Source: Paraburkholderia aromaticivorans (lineage in GTDB: Bacteria; Pseudomonadota; Gammaproteobacteria; Burkholderiales; Burkholderiaceae). From it: a DNA stretch of 64,000 nt. Numbering within the stretch: the stretch's first letter is position 1; every line of letters starts with the position of its first letter. Positions 18,981-46,921 of this stretch are shown in pieces. A program made the translations under genes and the position numbers. Location of the stretch: positions 1,612,001-1,676,000 of the forward strand of contig NZ_CP051514.1 in assembly GCF_012689525.1 (NCBI RefSeq). Reading direction: 5' to 3'. A model generated the notes under the pieces. That model ran no database searches. It saw only the letters and a program-made list of their open reading frames with translations, and was not told where the DNA came from.

Positions 18981-19267
18981 GCCGGATCGATCTTGTAGAG
19001 CCGTTGCCCCTCCTTGACATCGTCGCCTTCGGTAAATCCGCGGCGCAGGACAATACCGTCCACGCGTGCACGAACCTGCGCAACCAGAAAAGCATTCGTG
19101 CGGCCCGGCAGTTCGGTTGTCGTCGACACGGCCTGCGGCGACACTGTAATGACGCCCACCTCAGGCGGTTTCGACGGCTGTTCCGGCGGCTTTGGCCCGC
19201 ATGCGGCCAGAACCAGCATTCCCGTCACAGTGCCAGCCATTCTTAATTTGATCCAGTTCACTTCCAT
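18981..19267 (-). pseudogene. RND efflux periplasmic adaptor, N-terminal fragment
   Basis: Read from ATG 19267: MEVNWIKLRMAGTVTGMLVL followed by a lipobox (LAAC), then PEVGVITVSPQAVSTTTELPGR, VRARVDGIVLRRGFTEGDDV and GQRLYKIDPAP. This is the first ~95 residues of an AcrA/MexA-type membrane fusion protein up to the first lipoyl half-motif. The rest, and any RND pump gene, are missing; the sequence runs into the truncated permease on the opposite strand. The upstream region keeps a TGCATATGCA palindrome that may be an old operator. Confidence 0.85.
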
Positions 19268-34789: not shown

Positions 34790-34873
34790 GTAAGCGTCGC
34801 GGCGCGGCCGTCTTGATCTGTGCAATCGGAGACGCCAAAGTGGTTCCCACCATTTTGAGTAGCGGGAACCATT

Positions 34874-35314
34874 TTGGGATCAGAAGAGAAGCCAGCGTCG
34901 GGAACACGTAAAGGCAGCCCGAACCATAGCCCAGAGTTTCGACGTCGCCTGGCCGCGGCTGCATGTGAACCAGGCGTCTCGGTTTCGAAACTCGCCCGGG
35001 AACATGGCATCAACGCGAACATGTTGTTCAAGTGGCGGCGGCGTTACCGTGCGGAGCAAGCTGCCGAGACGACCGAGCTTGTTCCGGTGATGGTCGTGAG
35101 CGACGTGCCGGTCGCCATCACGCCTACATCTTCGGTCGAACCGGAGACGGTGAAGCCAACCAGGACCATCGGCACGATTGAAGTTCGAATTGGCCGGGCG
35201 GTGGTCAAGGTCGATGGCGCAGTTGACGCCGAAACGCTGCGTACGGTGCTCAAGAGTGTGCGATCGTCATCGGCCTGCCAACGGGTACGCGCGTGTGGAT
35301 CGCGGCGGGCGTAA
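34874..35314 (+). CDS. tnpA: IS66 TnpA (Orf1)
   Basis: A 146-residue small IS66 protein with a helix-turn-helix: HSPEFRRRLAAAACEPGVSVSKLAREHGINANMLFKWRRRY in the N-terminal half. The conserved core GTIEVRIGRAVVKVDG-VDAETLRTVLKSV lies near the C-terminus, after which the frame extends about 20 codons into tnpB. It is the first gene of the IS66 set, needed with TnpB for transposition. Confidence 0.9.
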   Translation: MGSEEKPASGTRKGSPNHSPEFRRRLAAAACEPGVSVSKLAREHGINANMLFKWRRRYRAEQAAETTELVPVMVVSDVPVAITPTSSVEPETVKPTRTIGTIEVRIGRAVVKVDGAVDAETLRTVLKSVRSSSACQRVRACGSRRA

Positions 35315-35610
35315 CCGACATGCGTAGCGGCTTTCCGGCTCTTGCCGCGAAGGTGCAAACGGCACTCGAAGAGAATCCGCTCGGCGGCGACGTGTTCATT
35401 TTTCGAGGGCGTCGCGGAGATCTCGTAAAAATTCTGTGGGCAACCGATGACGGACTATGGCTTCTCGCGAAGCGGCTTTCGCGCGGACGGTTTGTCTGGC
35501 CACAGGCTGATGGAGGCAAGATCTATCTGACGTCTGCGCAGCTGTCGATGTTGCTGGAAGGCATCGATTGGCGACAACCCCGTCGTACGGCCGCATTGTC
35601 GATGTTGTAA
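35293..35610 (+). CDS. tnpB: IS66 TnpB (Orf2)
   Basis: The product has the conserved IS66 Orf2 sequence: VWIAAGVTDMRSGFPALAA, NPLGGDVFIFRGRRGDLVKI, GLWLLAKRLSRGRFVWP and LLEGIDW. A GTG at 35293 is the first clear start; similarity (IVIGLPTGTR) continues upstream to about 35258 where the usual ATG is replaced by GTC/ATC. So the start may be non-canonical or the gene may be translated by coupling to tnpA, which it overlaps. About 105-115 residues. Confidence 0.88.
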   Translation: MWIAAGVTDMRSGFPALAAKVQTALEENPLGGDVFIFRGRRGDLVKILWATDDGLWLLAKRLSRGRFVWPQADGGKIYLTSAQLSMLLEGIDWRQPRRTAALSML

Positions 35611-35640
35611 ACCGCATCGAAGGCTCGTAAACTGCAGCGC

Positions 35641-37227
35641 ATGCCTGACCATGCGCCGCTTCCGCAAACCGTTGCCGAGCTCCACGCCCTGGTGCTCGAG
35701 CAGCAGGCATCGATGGCAAAGATGCGCCAGGAGATCGCCGAACGCGACCGGGAGATTGTTGAGCGGGACCAGGAACTTGAGCGCCTGAAGGCACAGATCG
35801 ACAAGCTCAGGCGCATGCACTTCGGTCGTAAATCCGAGCAGGTAGACCGACAGATCGATCGGCTCGAAACCCAACTTGAGGATCTGGCAGCGGGCAGCGG
35901 CGTTGCCGATGTTCGCCGTGCGCGCGCTCGTGCATCAAGTTCAGGCGCGTCTGCGGCATCCGCAAAGGAAGCCCTGCCGCCCCATCTGCCACGCGAAGAA
36001 CGCGTGCTCGAGCCCGACTCCATCTGCCCAAAATGCGACAACGCCATGGACTTGCTCGGCGAGGATGTATCCGAACAACTCGCGCGCGTCACAGCAATGT
36101 TCAAGGTCATCCGCACGATCCGCCGCAAACGGATCTGCTCCAGTTGCGGCCATATAGGGCAACGTCCCATGCCGGGGCTGCCAATCGAGCGCAGCATCGC
36201 GCATCCGAGCTTGCTGGCCGAGATCATCGTTTCGAAATATGCGAACCATACACCGCTGTATCGGCAATCCGAGATCGCGGCGCGCGACGGCGTCCGTCTC
36301 GATCGGGCCACCATGGCGCGCTGGGTCGGGCAATGCGAAGAACTCTGCCGGTTGCTGACTGAAGCGCTGCGTCGTTACACGATGTCGGCTGCGAAGCTCC
36401 ACGCGGACGACACGCCGATCCCGGTGCTCGCGCCCGGCAACAAGAAAACCAAAACGGGCCGGTTGTGGGTCTACGTGCGCGATGATCGACGCTCTGGTTC
36501 GAGCGAACCCGCTGCTGTCTGGTTCGCGTACTCGCCGGACCGCAAAGGCATCCACCCCCAGACCCATCTTGCCGGATTCGAAGGCGTCCTTCAGGCGGAC
36601 GGCTATGCCGGCTTCAACGAGCTGACCGAAAGCGGCAAGGTTCGCCTGGCATCTTGCTGGGATCACGCGCGCCGATACGTCTTCAACGTCCATGAGACAG
36701 CCCCGTCGGGAACCACGAAGCAATGGCTCGACATGATCGGCGATCTCTACGAAATCGAGGCTGCTATCCGCGGCAAACCACCCGACGAGCGGCGACGCGT
36801 CAGGCAAGAAAAGAGCAACCCGTTGCTCGGGGTCCTCGAGATGTCGATGAGGGAGAAACGAGCGACGCTTTGGCCGAAGGCTCCATTGGTCGAAGCGATT
36901 AACTACGCTCTGAATCGCTGGGATGGACTCACGCTGTTCTGTGACGACGGCCGCGTCGAGATCAGCAACGTGCTCGCCGAAAATGCCTTGCGCTGTGTGG
37001 CCCTTGGACGGCGCAATTTTATGTTCGCGGGCTCCGACAGCGGTGGTGAGCGAGCCGCCGCAATGTATAGCCTGATCGGCTCGTGCAAATTGAACAACAT
37101 CAATCCACGCGCCTACCTGGAATTCGTGCTCACGCACATTGCGGATCACCAGGCCAATCGCATCGACGAACTATTGCCCTGGAACGTCGCAAAGCATCTC
37201 CGCCCATCTACACCTGCCTCGCTTTGA
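35641..37227 (+). CDS. tnpC: IS66 transposase TnpC
   Basis: A 528-residue complete transposase. N-terminal coiled coil (QEIAERDREIVERDQELERL), FGRKSEQ, the zinc-finger domain with CPKC (about 130) and CSSCG (about 167), then the DDE core: LHADDTPIPVL (D1), LQADGYAGFN (D2) and SNVLAENALRCVALGRRN (E), and the C-terminal helper NRIDELLPWN. No lesions seen, so it may be active. Confidence 0.95.
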   Translation: MPDHAPLPQTVAELHALVLEQQASMAKMRQEIAERDREIVERDQELERLKAQIDKLRRMHFGRKSEQVDRQIDRLETQLEDLAAGSGVADVRRARARASSSGASAASAKEALPPHLPREERVLEPDSICPKCDNAMDLLGEDVSEQLARVTAMFKVIRTIRRKRICSSCGHIGQRPMPGLPIERSIAHPSLLAEIIVSKYANHTPLYRQSEIAARDGVRLDRATMARWVGQCEELCRLLTEALRRYTMSAAKLHADDTPIPVLAPGNKKTKTGRLWVYVRDDRRSGSSEPAAVWFAYSPDRKGIHPQTHLAGFEGVLQADGYAGFNELTESGKVRLASCWDHARRYVFNVHETAPSGTTKQWLDMIGDLYEIEAAIRGKPPDERRRVRQEKSNPLLGVLEMSMREKRATLWPKAPLVEAINYALNRWDGLTLFCDDGRVEISNVLAENALRCVALGRRNFMFAGSDSGGERAAAMYSLIGSCKLNNINPRAYLEFVLTHIADHQANRIDELLPWNVAKHLRPSTPASL

Positions 37228-37312
37228 TCCCTTCTGGCAGCGGCACGATGCGCCTGCCGCGTTCTTCGACGCTTGTCCAGAGAATTCTCAACGGCCCTCA
37301 CGCGACGCTTAC

Positions 37313-37429
37313 GGTATGTACGCAGGCGCCGCCTGTCAGCGCCATGTCCCGCAGAAGGCGCTAAAACTTCTCCTGGGCGGCCTGCTGTCGTATCTGGCGC
37401 TCCACTATCTTTGGCCTGTACTGGCGTGA
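37313..37429 (+). pseudogene. Tail of a TauE/SafE-like permease
   Basis: Immediately after the IS66 right end, one frame reads GMYAGAACQRHVPQKALKLLL and GGLLSYLALHYLWPVLA before TGA. The Gx3GA-x-(L)QRxVP-x-(A)L-x-LLGxLL pattern is that of the last helix pair of TauE/SafE (DUF81) transporters. Only about 38 residues remain; the front was lost at the IS66 boundary. Confidence 0.5.
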
Positions 37430-37530
37430 TCCGCAGCAACTGAGGCCCGGGCTCGTCTGGTTGCGTGGCTGCGTTGCCGAGGGCGGATTCCGGTCACCAA
37501 GCGCGCACGGATCGGCCATGTTGGCCTTAG

Positions 37531-38917
37531 TACTACAGCCGTAGATAAAACAAAGCAGGAGGTACGCAGCCGCGGCGCCGGTAGTGACACTGCTGGGCGC
37601 GGTACTGGTGCCTGCGCCGCCATGCCGACCAGGCCAGGACGTACTCGATGGAGTGAGCTCCGCGCCATAGGAGGCGGCACAGTAGCCGGCGGATCTCCTG
37701 CACACTGAGCGGCACCGAATCTTCAGGTGTTTTTTTTGGCGCGCACCCGCAGGGTGACGAGCGCGGCATGGGCCAGCAGCGCCAGCGTGATGTGACGGTA
37801 CCAGCCCTGCCATTGGCGTACCTCGTATTGATCGAGCCCGCATTCGCCTTTGGTTGCCTCGAAGCCGGTTTCGATTTCCCACCTGCGGCCCGCGACGTTG
37901 ACCAGGGTTTGCCGTGTGGCTTTGCTGCGCGGGGCGTATACGACGTAATACGCATGCTCGCGTTGCTCGTCCAGGCTGCGCCGCACCAGCAGGTAATGCC
38001 CGAAGCGGCGCTCTTCTGTGGTGATCTGCAGACGCCACAGCGGAGTCAACGCCCAGTCATACAGGCGCTCGCCTTTGGCGCCGGCACCTGCTGACAGGCG
38101 TCGCCATGCCCGTGCCGGCAAGGCTTCGGCGATCCGGTCGGACCGTACGTAGTCGGGACCCTGCCACCACAGGGGTTCGTTCTTCGCGACGGCCAGTACG
38201 AAAGACTGGCCGCGCGACTCGAGCCACAGCCGCAGGTGACGGTCGCCGCCGTAGACTTCATCACCCGTGACCCAGCCGCACGGCACACCTGCGTCCAGCG
38301 CCCGCTCAAGCATGCTGCGCGCGAGCTGCGGCTTCGTTGCAAACTCCACCGCCTTGGGAATGCCCGCTGCCTCGCAGCGCACACGGTCATCGGTCCACGC
38401 CTTGGGCACATACAGTTCGCGGTCGATAAACGCGCTGCCGCCGCGACCGGCATAGCAGAGGAACACGCCGATCTGGCTGTTCTCGATACGGCCTGCGGTG
38501 CCACTGTACTGGCGTTGCACACCGGCCGAGTGCTGCCCCTTCTTGACGAAGCCGGTCTCGTCCACAACCAGCACCGCGTCGCGCTCGCCCAGTTGTTCAA
38601 CGACGTACTCCCGGAGCACATCGCGCGCGCCATCCGCATCCCATTGCGCCCGCTCGAGCAGGTGCTGCACGCCATCAGGCGTTGCTTCGCCGATCCATTC
38701 GGCGAGTTGCCAGCCGTTCTTGCGCTCGACTGTGCCCAGCAGGCCCTTCAGGTAAGCGAGAGACCGATGTCGGGGCTCGGGTCGCCTGAACAGTTCTCCG
38801 AGCCGCTGATGTAGCGCCTCCAGTTCACGCTCCCACGCTATCGCCGTCGAATGCATCGCTTTCTCATGTAGTAGTACTAAATATTGTTAGTATAGTAAAA
38901 AATCTACGGCTGTAGTA
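37531..38917 (-). mobile_element. IS701-family element (copy A) with TTAG target duplication
   Basis: Perfect 16-bp inverted ends TACTACAGCCGTAGAT (37531-37546) and its complement (38902-38917). TTAG flanks both sides (37527-37530 and 38918-38921), fitting the 4-bp YTAR targets of IS701. One transposase gene on the minus strand, with an A8 run near its 3' end. Inserted beside IS701 copy B and an IS5 element at the same tetranucleotide. Confidence 0.93.
37723..38856 (-). CDS. IS701-family transposase, with A8 frameshift site
   Basis: The zero frame gives 377 residues with the IS701 core: VLVVDETGFVKKGQHSAGVQ (D1), GWVTGDEVYGGD (D2) and RRWEIETGFEATKGECGLDQ (E). It ends shortly after a run of eight A residues (37730-37737 on the minus strand). 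In the +1 frame the family's C-terminus continues, TPEDSVPLSVQEIRRLL and HVLAWSAW-like YVLAWSAWRRRHQ, to a stop at about 37533, giving the usual length of about 440 residues. The full protein may thus need slippage at the A run, or it is a recent mutation. Confidence 0.9.
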   Translation of the reverse strand: MHSTAIAWERELEALHQRLGELFRRPEPRHRSLAYLKGLLGTVERKNGWQLAEWIGEATPDGVQHLLERAQWDADGARDVLREYVVEQLGERDAVLVVDETGFVKKGQHSAGVQRQYSGTAGRIENSQIGVFLCYAGRGGSAFIDRELYVPKAWTDDRVRCEAAGIPKAVEFATKPQLARSMLERALDAGVPCGWVTGDEVYGGDRHLRLWLESRGQSFVLAVAKNEPLWWQGPDYVRSDRIAEALPARAWRRLSAGAGAKGERLYDWALTPLWRLQITTEERRFGHYLLVRRSLDEQREHAYYVVYAPRSKATRQTLVNVAGRRWEIETGFEATKGECGLDQYEVRQWQGWYRHITLALLAHAALVTLRVRAKKNT

Positions 38918-38920
38918 TTA

Positions 38921-39833
38921 GAAGCTGTTGCGAAATTAAGTTTTGGGGCTGTTAACTTTTCCGACTTGGTGTTAACTTTCTGTCTTGTTTTGCCTGACAG
39001 GAAGCGATGCCTAAAGAACTGATAGACGACGAATTGTGGTCACTCATCGAACCGCTGCTACCCGCGCGAGCACCGCGCAATCGCCAATATGCCGGTCGAA
39101 AACCGACACCGGACCGAGCCGTTCTAACCGGCATCGTATTCGTGTTGCGCTCGGGCATTGCGTGGAACCTGCTACCGCAAGAGATGGGATGCGGTTCGGG
39201 CACCGCCTGCTGGCGACGGCTCGTGGCATGGCAAGAAGCAGGAGTCTGGCAACGCATCCACGAAGCGTTGCTGGCCGAACTGCGTCGTCGTGGCGAAATC
39301 GACCTGTCACGAGTGCTTGTGGACAGCTCGTCGATTCGTGCGATGCTGGCGGGAAAAAAACCGGCCCGAATCCAACGGACCGGCGCAAGCTCGGCAGCAA
39401 ACACCACCTCATCGTCGACGCGAAAGGCCTCCCGCTCGCGGTCATCCTGACCGGGGCGAACCGTCACGACGTCACCCAGCTTGATGCACTCGTCGATGCC
39501 ATTCCACACATTCGCGGCAAGCGGGGACGTCCACTGCATAAACCGCAAATCGTTCAGGGCGACCGGGGCTACAGCTCGGAACCGCACCGGCAGCGTTTGA
39601 GAGAACGCGGCATCACGCCGGTACTCGCAAAGATTGGCTCGCCCCATGGCAGTGGCCTGGGTAAAACGCGTTGGCCAGTCGAGCGCTCGATTGCCTGGCT
39701 TCACTCGTTCCGACGCCTGAAGATTCGCTACGAACGCTATGCCCATGTCCATGAAGCCTTCCTGTCTCTGGCTTGTGCCTTGATTTGCTGGACGCGACTC
39801 AAGCCAATGTTTAACTAATTTCGCAACAGCTTC
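38921..39833 (+). mobile_element. IS5-family (IS427-group) element with TTA target duplication
   Basis: Inverted ends GAAGCTGTTGCGAAATTA (38921-38938) and its complement (39816-39833). TTA flanks both sides (38918-38920, 39834-39836), the short TA-containing target of this group. It carries one transposase gene in two overlapping frames. It is inserted exactly in the TTAG that separates the two IS701 elements. Confidence 0.92.
39007..39818 (+). CDS. IS5-family transposase made by programmed frameshift
   Basis: Frame 1 from ATG 39007: MPKELIDDELWSLIEPLLPA, TGIVFVLRSGIAWNLLPQEM and the first catalytic Asp in RVLVDSSSIRAML. At GGG AAA AAA A (A7 run, 39354-39360) the ribosome must slip to the -1 frame to continue GPNPTDRRKLGSKHHLIVDA, ANRHDVTQLDALVD, QGDRGYSSEPHRQRL (D2) and WPVERSIAWLHSFRRLKIRY (E) to 39818. 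This two-frame layout is normal for the IS427 group. Fused product about 270 residues; it appears intact. Confidence 0.9.
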
Positions 39834-39837
39834 TTAG

Positions 39838-41296
39838 TTTTACTGTGTCATAAATTTATGCCATTATAGAACCTTCTTCAGATTTGGCATGAGGAAACAA
39901 TGGACGCGAAATCGTCGTTCGATGAGTACCTGGAACATCTCTGTGAAGCGCTCGGACACAGCGATCGCAATGCAGGGCTGGTGGGGTACTGCCAAGGCTT
40001 GATGTTGCCGCTGCGGCGTAAGAGTGTTGAGCCGCTGGCCGCTCACCTTGAACCCGAACGTGTCAGCGCGCGCCACCAGTCCTTACATCACTTTGTTTCG
40101 AAGTCGGAATGGTCAGACGCTGCTTTGCTTGAGCAGGTCAGGCGTTGGGTATTGCCACACATGAATCCGGCCAACGGACTGTTCTGGATCATTGACGACA
40201 CCGGCTTTCCGAAACAGGGCAAACATTCGGTAGGCGTCGCACGGCAATACTGCGGGCAGTTAGGAAAGCAGGACAACTGTCAGGTCGCAGTGAGCTTGTC
40301 GGTCGCCACGGAGGACGCCAGTTTGCCCGTCGCATACCAACTCTATTTGCCCCATGAATGGAGCGAAGATCCGGCACGATGTCAGCGCGCTGGCGTGCCT
40401 GATGAAATCGCGTTTTCGACCAAGCCGCAAATGGCGGCAACACAACTGCGTGAAGCGCGCGAAAGCGGCGCGCCTGACGGTATTGTGCTGGCAGACGCCG
40501 GTTACGGGAACGACAGTGTCTTCCGTGACGCCATCAGCGAACTGGGATTAACTTACGCAGTGGGCATTCAGTCCAGCGCCCGCGTCTGGGCTCCCGGCAC
40601 GGCACCTCTGAGTGTTGAGCCGCCCATCGGGCAGCCTGGACGGCCGCGCAAACTGCTGCGCCGTGCGCCCGGTCACGAGCCAGTATCAGTCAAAGCGCTT
40701 GCGCGTGGTCTTGATGCTTCTTCCTACCGCATGATCAACTGGCGCGAAGGAACCCGCACCATCCTGAGTTCCAGATTTGCCGCTGTACGTGTACGGACAT
40801 CGCACCGTGACTATTGGCGCGCTACACAGCGCGATGAGCAATGGCTCCTGATTGAATGGCCTCAGGGCGACCCTGAACCGGCTAAATATTGGCTCGCAAC
40901 ACTTCCGGAAGTGACGTCCCTCGAACGTCTGGTCAGTGTCGCGAAGATGCGCTGGCGTATCGAGCGCGACTACCAGGATCTGAAGCAGGAGTTCGGTCTG
41001 GGCCATTTCGAAGGCCGCAGTTGGCGTGGGTTTCACCATCATGCGTCGCTTTGCATCGCGGCCTACGGTTTTCTGGTTGCACAGCGCCTGATTCAGGGCG
41101 CTGGTAAAAAAAACTTCGCCATCGGCAGCCTCTTTACCTTACCCGACGATTATGTGCCACGGGGCTCCCCAGCGCGCCCAACGACATGTGGCTGATTCGA
41201 TTGCCAGCTTGCGCTGGCGGCTCGCAGCCTACATCGCCCAACGCCTTCGACGATGTCCGTTCTGCTCTTCATCAAATATCTTGTGACACAGTAAAA
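39838..41296 (+). mobile_element. IS701-family element (copy B) with TTAG target duplication
   Basis: Ends TTTTACTGTGTCA (39838-39850) and complement (41284-41296). TTAG flanks both sides (39834-39837 and 41297-41300). The element is a different IS701 relative from copy A (little sequence in common). It has one transposase gene on the plus strand, frameshifted near its end. The right TTAG abuts the 3' end of a group II intron fragment. Confidence 0.9.
39900..41285 (+). pseudogene. IS701-family transposase, frameshifted near the C-terminus
   Basis: The open frame to 41195 holds the full catalytic core: LFWIIDDTGFPKQGKHSVGV (D1), GIVLADAGYGND (D2) and MRWRIERDYQDLKQEFGLGH (E). Near 41165 a single missing base in CACGGGGCTCC moves the frame; the true end QRAQRHVADSIASLRWRLAA to SSSNIL lies in the next frame, stopping at 41283-41285. 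The lost tail is about 40 residues outside the DDE core, so residual function is possible. Confidence 0.85.
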
Positions 41297-41300
41297 TTAG

Positions 41301-41410
41301 TCGGGTAGCAGCAACGGATTGCTGCGCCGCCGCCCCCCAAGAACGGAGCGTGCGAGTTTTCCCCGCACTCCGCTCAAGCCGTTCAAAGCCCCTGATCAGG
41401 AGCCGGGTTC
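41301..41410 (-). mobile_element. Group II intron 3' end (domains V and VI)
   Basis: On the minus strand 41375-41341 folds as domain V: GAGCGGAG pairs with CTCCGTTC, a CG bulge follows, and TGCGGG pairs with CTCGCA around a GAAA-type loop. The catalytic AGC triad is at its 5' side. Downstream comes a GC-rich hairpin (GCAGCAAtccGTTGCTGC, domain VI-like) and the terminus CTACCCGAC. The intron body and maturase are missing. The loop is one base longer than the usual 34-nt domain V. Confidence 0.7.
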
Positions 41411-45558: not shown

Positions 45559-46512
45559 TCAAGCTTTGCGGAAAGCTCTACGCGCCATCCATAGATTGCC
45601 CAAAGCAAACAGGGTGGTGATCTGGGCGGTGTTCTTTGTCAAACCACGATAGCGGGTCTTCATGTAACCAAACTGCCGCTTGAGGATGCGAAACGGGTGT
45701 TCGACCTTGGCCCGAATACCCGCCTTCAGGCGTTCGATCTGATCGTAGATCGCGTCCAACGAATCACTCAGATCCAATTTCCTGCGCTTTGCTGGTCGCA
45801 TTGCAACATGCCACCGAACCGCGTCAGTCTCACAACGCTTTTCGATACCCTGGTAACCGGCGTCCGCGTACACATCCGTTTCTTCGCCATGCAGCAACGC
45901 CTGGGCGACGGTGATGTCGTGAACATTGGCCGCCGTTCCAATGACTGTATGGACGAGGCCCGAGTCGGCATCCACGCCGACATGCATTTTCATCCCGAAG
46001 TACCAGTTGCCACCTTTCTGCGTGGATTGCATTTCTGGATCGCGCGTGCCGGAGCCATTCTTTGTCGAACTGGGCGCAGCAATCAAGGTGGCGTCGACTG
46101 CTGAACCAGCCTTAAGCATCAGGCCTTTCTCCGTCAGGATTTCATTGACCAGCGCCAGCATTTGCACCGCCAGTCCGTGCGTCTCCAGCAGATGGCGGAA
46201 CCGAAGAATCGTGCTTTCATCGGGCAAGCGAACCATCCCGCCGTCGAGACCCGCGAACTCGCGATAAAGCGGCACGTCATAGAGTGCCTCTTCCATAGCA
46301 GGGTCCGAAAGACCGAACCATTGCTGCATGAAATGAATCTGCAGCATCGTTGCAATCGGGAACGGCGGCCGACCAGTTTTGCCCGAGGGATAGTGCGGCT
46401 CGATCAGCGCAATCAGTTTCAACCAAGGCACAACACGTCGCATCTCATCGAGAAATTCCCGCTTGCGCGTCCGCTTCGTTGACAGATCCAGACCAAGACC
46501 AAGCTGCGTCAT
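45559..46512 (-). CDS. IS5-family transposase
   Basis: A 317-residue protein from ATG 46512 (an in-frame upstream start exists at 46527). MTQLGLGLDLSTKRTRKREF, FPIATMLQIHFMQQWFGLSD and DESTILRFRHLLE are the N-terminal IS5-group signatures. The DDE residues are in GSAVDATLIAAPSS (D1), VYADAGYQGIEKR (D2) and KVEHPFRILKRQFGYMKTRY (E). The frame is complete. Terminal inverted repeats could not be assigned with certainty, so element borders are not given. Confidence 0.92.
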   Translation of the reverse strand: MTQLGLGLDLSTKRTRKREFLDEMRRVVPWLKLIALIEPHYPSGKTGRPPFPIATMLQIHFMQQWFGLSDPAMEEALYDVPLYREFAGLDGGMVRLPDESTILRFRHLLETHGLAVQMLALVNEILTEKGLMLKAGSAVDATLIAAPSSTKNGSGTRDPEMQSTQKGGNWYFGMKMHVGVDADSGLVHTVIGTAANVHDITVAQALLHGEETDVYADAGYQGIEKRCETDAVRWHVAMRPAKRRKLDLSDSLDAIYDQIERLKAGIRAKVEHPFRILKRQFGYMKTRYRGLTKNTAQITTLFALGNLWMARRAFRKA

Positions 46513-46921
46513 CACGTCGCTCCTCACCTAATTCGCTCTGTTTCCAGGATAGCTTGGCAACGGCGCAATGCCAGGACTTTTGCAGACATTCCTTAACACG
46601 AAACAGACACGGACATTCCGAATTTGCCATGAGTCATCTTTTTAATCCGAGGCTGACGGTCCGTTGCGGACAAAACCGAAGGGTCGCAGTGGGTTGACCG
46701 GAGACGGACGCCATCCGATTCTGCGTGGCGGGCTTCAGGTAACTCGCAGGCGATGCTTCCGATCACTCGTCGAATTGACGGCCCTTCAGCAAGCCGCGAC
46801 GCAGTCGTTAACCAGTGGTCCAAGAGCCGAAACAGTTGGTTCCTTCTGATTTACCTAGAGTACACCCGTTCGCTCTCGTAGGTTCTGACGGCCTTCCCCT
46901 CGGAAAGACCGGGACTTTTCC

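Follow-up and report, generated by a model that had tools for sequence, protein, structure and literature searches.

Why do three insertion sequences in Paraburkholderia aromaticivorans occupy a single tetranucleotide, and which of them came first? The locus lies in a window (the whole stretch of DNA that was analyzed; 64,000 nt of contig NZ_CP051514.1) and reads, to the base, TTAG-[IS701 A]-TTA-[IS5, IS427-type]-TTAG-[IS701 B]-TTAG (Table 1). We consider it likely that a two-step process which has operated repeatedly produced this stack: IS5 inserts first, and IS701 elements then insert at its edges.

Anatomy and family assignment of the three elements

Excision of A, IS5, and B leaves a single TTAG (ggcc-TTAG-tcggg). 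Together with the base-exact ends, this bears out the proposal of a first-pass annotation that three separate insertions occurred on one TTAG. The YTAR targets which it had assigned to the IS701 elements are seen in the duplications of A and B, the TTA duplication of IS5 is found on its inner side and at 39834-39836, and the same copy of the site was indeed used repeatedly. Its reading that the right TTAG of A is formed with a G of IS5 is also correct to the base: this TTAG consists of TTA and the first G of IS5 or, with IS5 removed, the G at 39837. The edge sequence of IS5 is CTTA|GAAGCTGTTGCG (the bar marks the IS5 boundary).

Table 1. Features of the stack and its immediate flanks (positions refer to the window).
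Feature	Position	Strand	Remarks
Stretch separating IS66 element from stack	37313..37526
TTAG, left duplication of IS701 A	37527..37530		C precedes it (CTTAG)
IS701-family element A	37531..38917	-	1387 bp, 16-bp TIR TACTACAGCCGTAGAT
A transposase, 377 aa	37723..38856	-	PF13546 DDE_5
TTA, inner target duplication of IS5	38918..38920		with first G of IS5, right TTAG of A
IS5-family element, IS427-type	38921..39833	+	913 bp, perfect 18-bp TIR GAAGCTGTTGCGAAATTA, starts with G and ends with C
First ORF of IS5	39007..39450	+	PF13340 DUF4096; candidate frameshift site is the A7 run at 39354-39360
Second ORF of IS5, overlapping the first	39036..39818	+	PF01609 DDE_Tnp_1
TTAG, outer TTA of IS5 plus G	39834..39837		also left duplication of IS701 B
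IS701-family element B	39838..41296	+	1459 bp, TIR TTTTACTGTGTCAYAA
B transposase, 431 aa	39900..41195	+	PF13546 DDE_5
TTAG, right duplication of B	41297..41300		its G (41300) is also the final base of the intron remnant
Group II intron domain V/VI remnant	41300..41377	-	RF00029

The excerpted text of PMC2266710 describes the IS701 family by a 4-bp duplication, a length of 1400-1550 bp, and ends of the form ---YACT-Y--YR. Elements A and B have the 4-bp duplication in common with this family and are near its size range. For element A, the transposase matches PF13546 (E 2.7e-51), the duplication is of YTAR type, and an element from P. caribensis which is annotated as IS701 family is 75% identical; its end TACTACAGCC matches the consensus at Y, A, and C but not at T. 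Element B shows the transposase (PF13546, E 6.1e-90), the 4-bp duplication (TTAG/CTAG in this genome), and a terminus, TTTTACTGTGTCA, that fits the consensus. The TIRs of A and B are different.

The IS5 element has two overlapping ORFs with an A7 frameshift run (candidate fusion), carries both DUF4096 and DDE_Tnp_1, and duplicates TTA in this genome and TTA, or TA in some relatives, which is within a range of 2-4 bp. Overlapping ORFs, a frameshift motif, and a short duplication also characterize the IS427 group in the excerpted text of PMC3281130, where a length of 832-865 bp is given, compared to 913 bp here, and where most of the members listed have 2-bp duplications, compared to the 3-bp TTA in the window.

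Recurrence of the stack in the same genome

Besides the window, its genome (G000) carries two further A-IS5-B stacks, one of them with a fourth element, and three further A-IS5 pairs. All six IS5 copies (five whole, one interrupted) adjoin A at TTA|G; six of the eight copies of A adjoin IS5, and three of the four copies of B do so at C|TTAG. Short IS5-related fragments at C1:784012 and C1:127271 (C1 is the replicon of the window) stand apart from this count. For the other 11 DUF4096 matches in the genome, inspection by eye of the three best-scoring repeat pairs each did not reveal clear ends flanked by a suitable duplication. One of two further DDE_5 copies, at C1:469k, has TTAA edges without IS5.

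The threefold occurrence of A-IS5-B might suggest that the three elements transpose jointly as a composite, which we regard as extremely improbable. Ends are paired in three different ways among the six A-IS5 contacts, which therefore are not copies of one composite unit; in addition, every element has its own duplication, and the difference between the TIRs of A and B speaks against such a unit. A composite transposon, with the same IS on both flanks and one outer duplication, was considered as well and rejected: A and B differ, inner duplications are present, and end pairings vary.

The first-pass annotation had also suspected a local hot spot, perhaps set by the group II intron end or by a beneficial knock-out. 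The intron end does coincide with the TTAG, its last base providing the G, but the same stacks are found at two other sites on C1 with other flanks, which makes a local cause very improbable. A search for the empty site that the first-pass annotation had proposed gave, for the left flank (37313..37526), a DNA match only in its own genome among 144 genomes of the genus, and none in the plasmid collection.

The association of A with IS5 ends on C1 is more than expected by chance. Six of the seven A copies on this replicon are located at the six IS5 ends, and binomial probabilities are ~1e-11 against ~571 CTTAG sites and ~3e-6 against ~62 CTTAGA sites, both being rough values since the site numbers are extrapolations from a 161-kb part of C1 that is rich in IS elements. 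Listed directly, CTTAGA sites on C1 number 86; in the complete genome, CTTAGA occurs 350 times, versus 4228 for the reversed pattern. An explanation without any special attraction would be that both families favor CTTAG, that the site persists, and that insertion beside an IS is harmless. YTAR-type sites are indeed used by both families, and copies of the site persist. Yet 6/7 copies of A are at IS5 edges despite the abundance of CTTAG and CTTAGA relative to six IS5 copies, and insertion at plenty of other places, intergenic or rich in IS elements, should do no more harm. We thus consider shared targets with survival bias rather unlikely; the IS701 transposase appears to prefer IS5 edges beyond mere site sharing.

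A-like and B-like copies in other genomes

The census comprises 85 distinct copies of A-like elements in which at least one end could be read, at loci picked by similarity to A rather than randomly; 7 of 93 copies lacked a readable end, and L124 was left out as a duplicate of L125. An IS5-family gene is directly outside the duplication (ORF start <=120 bp outside the YTAR) in 27/85 copies, the duplication being TTAG in 17, CTAG in 4, and CTAA or TTAA in 6. The hosts are Burkholderiaceae, Xenophilus, Photorhabdus, Xenorhabdus, Streptomyces, and Kitasatospora. In two additional census copies, the IS5 end is present and its gene is interrupted. All 10 neighbor frames scanned for DUF4096 match. 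The preference for IS5 edges is not absolute, as for 58/85 copies no IS5 gene lies immediately beyond an end that could be read. Shared targets would be consistent with the IS701-IS701 abutments, which occur in 5/85 copies and also at L280; against them, an IS5 ORF that is near but not touching (searched up to 3 kb) is seen in only 3/85 copies (four if the duplicate L124 is counted).

Six of the 27 abutments are exceptions to a simple YTA|G rule (L082 twice, L114, L129, L132, L138). L081 and L082 have unequal TTAG/CTAA edges and fit the rule poorly; both L082 copies were kept among the 27. Duplications are unequal in 11 of 58 copies read at both ends (a set without six copies). A C precedes the YTAR in 11/16 IS5-touching and 17/31 non-IS5 copies, a tendency only.

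A pattern sample covered 398 family genomes, 27 of them with matches. Among the matches listed, IS5 abuts in 8 of the 32 stretches retrieved from genomes other than G000; of these eight, three were already in the census and five are new; seven listed elements were not fetched and were left out. A genus-wide search, which scored two candidates per genome, was kept out of all counts. Four of nine B-like loci with readable ends adjoin IS5 (L069, L279, L282, L283); L066 and L285 have no B-like ends that could be read, and L060 and L280 are one and the same place. In Nitrosomonas (L077-L079), there was no IS5 gene among the neighbor frames scanned. Short inverted-repeat units with IS5-like edges were observed at L077 and, less clearly, at L079, and were left out of the count.

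Order of insertion and a proposed two-step process

The target preference of IS5 can be read from copies that do not adjoin A in further genomes of this genus. All eight full-length copies are at YTTAR, with an outer G in 5/8 (five partial match rows were set aside). As IS5 inserts at YTTAR, duplicates TTA, and starts with G, it creates TTA|G, where its own terminal base completes a YTAR site suited to IS701.

For the window, the order B, A, IS5 had been proposed. At five loci (L031, L069, L075, L101, L136), a base other than G lies just outside IS5 though the outer duplication of IS701 is TTAG, so IS701 arrived after IS5 there; the TA-type loci L073 and L084 agree with this order. The window itself gives no readable order because its outer base is G, and we infer that IS5 preceded IS701 here as well. 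The first-pass interpretation is thus only partly supported. If IS701 came first and IS5 preferred the TTAG duplicated by it, as the proposed last step implies, the outer base should be G in all 14 IS5-IS701 pairs from Burkholderiaceae. It is G in 9/14, which together with the window is compatible with this order in those cases but is similar to the fraction for IS5 away from A. All copies of the relevant IS5 adjoin A while some A are free in G000 (2/8 free) and in genome G364 (1/3 free), as would be expected if IS701 came first; on the other hand, the eight IS5 copies without A noted above exist, and in genome G439, where DUF4096 matches number 62, contact with IS5 was seen for just one of two A copies, the second of which could be read from a single end. 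Given the five stacks with a deviating base, we consider an IS701-first order improbable.

In the two-step process that we favor, an IS427-type IS5 would enter (C/T)TTA(G/A) and duplicate TTA. Since IS5 starts with G and ends with C, one edge of the element then reads TTA|G and the opposite one C|TTAR, and both would match the YTAR target of IS701, in which C is the commonest preceding base. IS701 elements would then enter these edges, A at TTA|G (6/6) and B at C|TTAG (3/3) in G000. Each IS701 insertion duplicates YTAR again, so that the site survives and stacks may reach four elements. The preference would come from reading the IS5 terminal sequence or from using freshly repaired target gaps. 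More generally, and with more doubt than confidence, we suggest that IS427-type IS5 elements could be docking platforms across bacteria: they would manufacture a rare YTAR edge site that is actively recognized by IS701 transposases (by the terminal sequence or the freshly repaired gap), with one family seeding the spread of another and multi-IS islands being built.

The nearest precedent is IS1383, which, as reportedly described by Muller and colleagues in 2001, targets the inverted repeats of IS1384 in Pseudomonas putida. IS1384 belongs to the IS5 family, and IS1383 has an IS110/IS1111-type recombinase acting within the repeat. In both systems, one IS takes the ends of another as target; in contrast to IS1383, the DDE-domain elements described here land at the edge (duplicated target plus IS5 terminal base). 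IS4321 and IS5075, which also have an IS110-type recombinase, insert inside the terminal inverted repeats of the Tn21 family. As with A and B, insertion is aimed at the ends of another mobile element, but it occurs inside the repeat and, unlike that of IS701 at IS5, without known target completion by a terminal base. No account of IS701 at IS5 edges was found in the excerpted CC-licensed PMC literature, including PMC2266710, PMC3281130, and PMC11208160. If correct, the two-step process would explain the growth of mixed insertion sequence clusters at one point, one transposon creating the targets of another via its terminal base and duplication, and landing places of IS701 would be predictable by a simple rule, TTA|G at the edge of IS5. 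The system would also make it possible to test cleanly whether the ends of other transposons or fresh repair gaps are sensed by transposases.

Caballeronia strains SBC1 and SBC2 have their two A-IS5 stacks in common and differ only by a lone A copy, so their comparison gives no stack order. For this relative of A, the strain pair does show an unoccupied site: a single CTAA in SBC2 corresponds to CTAA-A-CTAA in SBC1.

Anatomy of the stack and its counterparts in the same genome

The element boundaries proposed in the first-pass annotation for the stack TTAG-A-TTA-IS5-TTAG-B-TTAG were all borne out on reading the sequence. A (1387 bp) and B (1459 bp) are two different IS701-family elements, each encoding a DDE_5 transposase and flanked by a 4-bp TTAG duplication. 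The two enclose a 913-bp IS427-type element of the IS5 family (termed IS5 here, as are its IS427-type relatives elsewhere), which has reading frames matching DUF4096 and DDE_Tnp_1, perfect inverted repeats of 18 bp, and a TTA duplication of 3 bp. As had been noted, removal of all three elements restores a single TTAG, which is preceded by C. A group II intron remnant, whose Rfam match ends at 41300, supplies the G of this TTAG as its last base, and two further intron tails of the genome likewise start with GTCGGG, beside unrelated sequence. The window also carries a Bcj14 small RNA (Rfam RF02836) and an IS66 element with 22-bp imperfect ends; the latter is without a matching 8-bp duplication outside, which hints at a rearrangement.

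The 10.84-Mb genome, in which the window occupies C1:1612001-1676000, contains eight copies of A, four of B, and six of the IS5 type found in the window, together with one further relative of A (77% identical); profile searches added two DDE_5 copies, along with 11 DUF4096 matches lacking clear ends. All six IS5 copies adjoin A. One of them is interrupted by another IS, the transposase of which has the same Pfam scores (DUF772, DDE_Tnp_1) as a frame in the window. Three of the four B copies adjoin the IS5 end opposite A; the fourth is found at CTAG, 130 bp from an IS5-free A copy which likewise sits at CTAG. At one locus, four elements share a single TTAG (TTAG-A'-TTAG-A-TTA-IS5-TTAG-B-TTAG). 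The right end of A meets the left end of IS5 twice, the left end of A meets the left end of IS5 once, and the left end of A meets the right end of IS5 three times. The three different pairings indicate separate insertions and speak against a copied block.

Coordinates of features (C1, replicon carrying the window; L numbers, fetched loci with A-like, B-like, or IS5 elements)
Feature	Sequence	Position
Bcj14 small RNA, minus strand	window	18987-19159
IS66 element	window	34790-37312
Transposase frame (DUF772, DDE_Tnp_1)	window	45559-46527
IS5 adjoining A	window	
IS5 adjoining A	C1	332.2k
IS5 adjoining A	C1	626.8k
IS5 adjoining A	C1	2108.1k
IS5 adjoining A	C1	2227.8k
IS5 adjoining A, interrupted	C1 (2246.5k)	2246547-2248647 (L036:6548-8648)
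Four-element stack	C1	624013-629164 (L033:6014-11165)
A relative, Caballeronia SBC1	L222	1998-3392
Single CTAA, Caballeronia SBC2	L246	near 1799-1802
B-B stack, P. phymatum pBPHY01	L280	2011-4982
Photorhabdus thracensis unit	L084	3916-4047
Photorhabdus thracensis unit	L086	
Photorhabdus thracensis unit	L112	6323-6454
Nitrosomonas unit	L077	6325-6470
Nitrosomonas unit	L079	6325-6370

Recurrence in other genomes

A census of A-like elements in 80 loci of the genome collection plus the source genome yielded 93 copies, of which 86 could be read at one end or both; 85 of these were distinct. An IS5-family reading frame starts at most 120 bp outside the YTAR (the 4-bp IS701 target) in 27 of these 85; in two more, an IS5 end is present and the IS5 gene is interrupted. 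Elsewhere within the up to 3 kb searched, such a frame occurs for three of the 85 (four if the dropped duplicate L124 is counted). The YTAR at the 27 copies is TTAG (17), CTAG (4), or CTAA or TTAA (6), and their hosts include Paraburkholderia, Burkholderia, Caballeronia, Xenophilus, Photorhabdus, Xenorhabdus, Streptomyces, and Kitasatospora. All 10 neighboring frames scanned by Pfam match DUF4096. Because the IS5 end sequences vary from host to host, it is unlikely, judging from these sequences, that one single IS5 end sequence is the recognized feature.

Pattern sampling of 398 family genomes gave matches in 27. Of the 32 stretches fetched from genomes other than the source, 8 have an adjoining IS5 and a further one (L231) has IS5 nearby; three of the eight (L219, L224, L225) repeat census loci, and seven listed elements lie outside the 32. 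B-like elements behave like A-like ones: among nine loci whose ends could be read (L046, L063, L069, L279-L284), IS5 adjoins in four. These nine stem from ranked searches and are not a random sample. In P. phymatum, two different B-like elements are stacked on one YTAR, and no IS5 was detected at the outer edges of this stack.

Targeting of the ends of one IS by another is known: going by their title, Muller et al. (2001; via PMC11208160) identified the inverted repeats of IS1384 as the specific target of IS1383. No description of IS701 docking on IS5 edges was found in the openly licensed PMC literature searched.

Order of insertion

Had IS701 inserted first, the base just beyond IS5 would have to match base four of the IS701 duplication (G). 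In five stacks this base is A (L031, L069, L101, L136) or C (L075), with the far IS701 duplication being TTAG in all five. The adjacent G is thus the first base of IS5, and IS701 inserted after IS5 in these cases. The IS5 of L069 is internally shortened and that of L075 is without its final C; both nevertheless retain intact duplications. The same order fits L073 and L084, where one side reads TTA and the opposite side TAA. Of 14 Burkholderiaceae pairs, nine have G as the outer base, close to the five of eight for IS5 without A. The remaining five have another base there; two of them (L073, L214) have an outer TAA, the IS701 edges of L214 being unequal.

Taken alone, one pattern could mean that IS5 seeks IS701: all copies of the relevant IS5 touch A in the source genome and in genome G364, and both genomes also have free A copies. 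The opposite is suggested by the outer bases, by the eight IS5 copies that exist without A, and by genome G439, which has 62 DUF4096 matches but only one abutment seen for two A copies. The first-pass annotation had placed IS5 last, which is the reverse of what the five readable stacks reveal. In the window the outer base is G and the order is hence unreadable; by analogy, we infer that IS5 preceded IS701 there as well.

The IS5 edge as a target

IS701 copies sit in YTAR, as had been stated. A clean empty-site check of target use, at a site without IS5, is provided by Caballeronia, where a relative of A is flanked by CTAA in SBC1 and only one CTAA is present in the sister SBC2. All eight full-length IS5 relatives away from A in other genomes of the genus are found at Y-TTA-R, with G after TTA in five; one (L052) has a 2-bp duplication. 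Since the first base of IS5 is G and its last base is C, insertion into CTTAR yields CTTA/G and C/TTAR (slash, element edge). Among 47 IS701 copies with equal duplications (six further copies having been dropped from the set), TTAG is used by 27 (14 touching IS5) and CTAG by 20 (two touching IS5). C precedes YTAR in 17 of the 31 copies away from IS5 and in 11 of the 16 touching it, a tendency and not a rule.

The site that IS5 creates in the source genome, CTTAGA, occurs 350 times versus 4228 for the reversed pattern (ca 12-fold rarer), with 86 on C1 among 100 matches listed. Six of the seven A copies on C1 are at IS5 edges, far beyond chance relative to the CTTAGA counts at rough densities. 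Pure survival may explain IS701 at IS5 edges, but this would require the edges of IS elements to be much safer places than the many other CTTAG sites. The IS701 transposase may favor the IS5 edge beyond mere YTAR availability.

Short units were also encountered. Those of ca 131 bp in Photorhabdus thracensis, with IS701 ends and YTAR edges, probably represent non-autonomous derivatives of IS701; an IS5 also adjoins the L084 unit. In Nitrosomonas, IS701 copies adjoin short inverted-repeat units that start with GARCCTGTTCAA and resemble miniature elements of the IS5 type.
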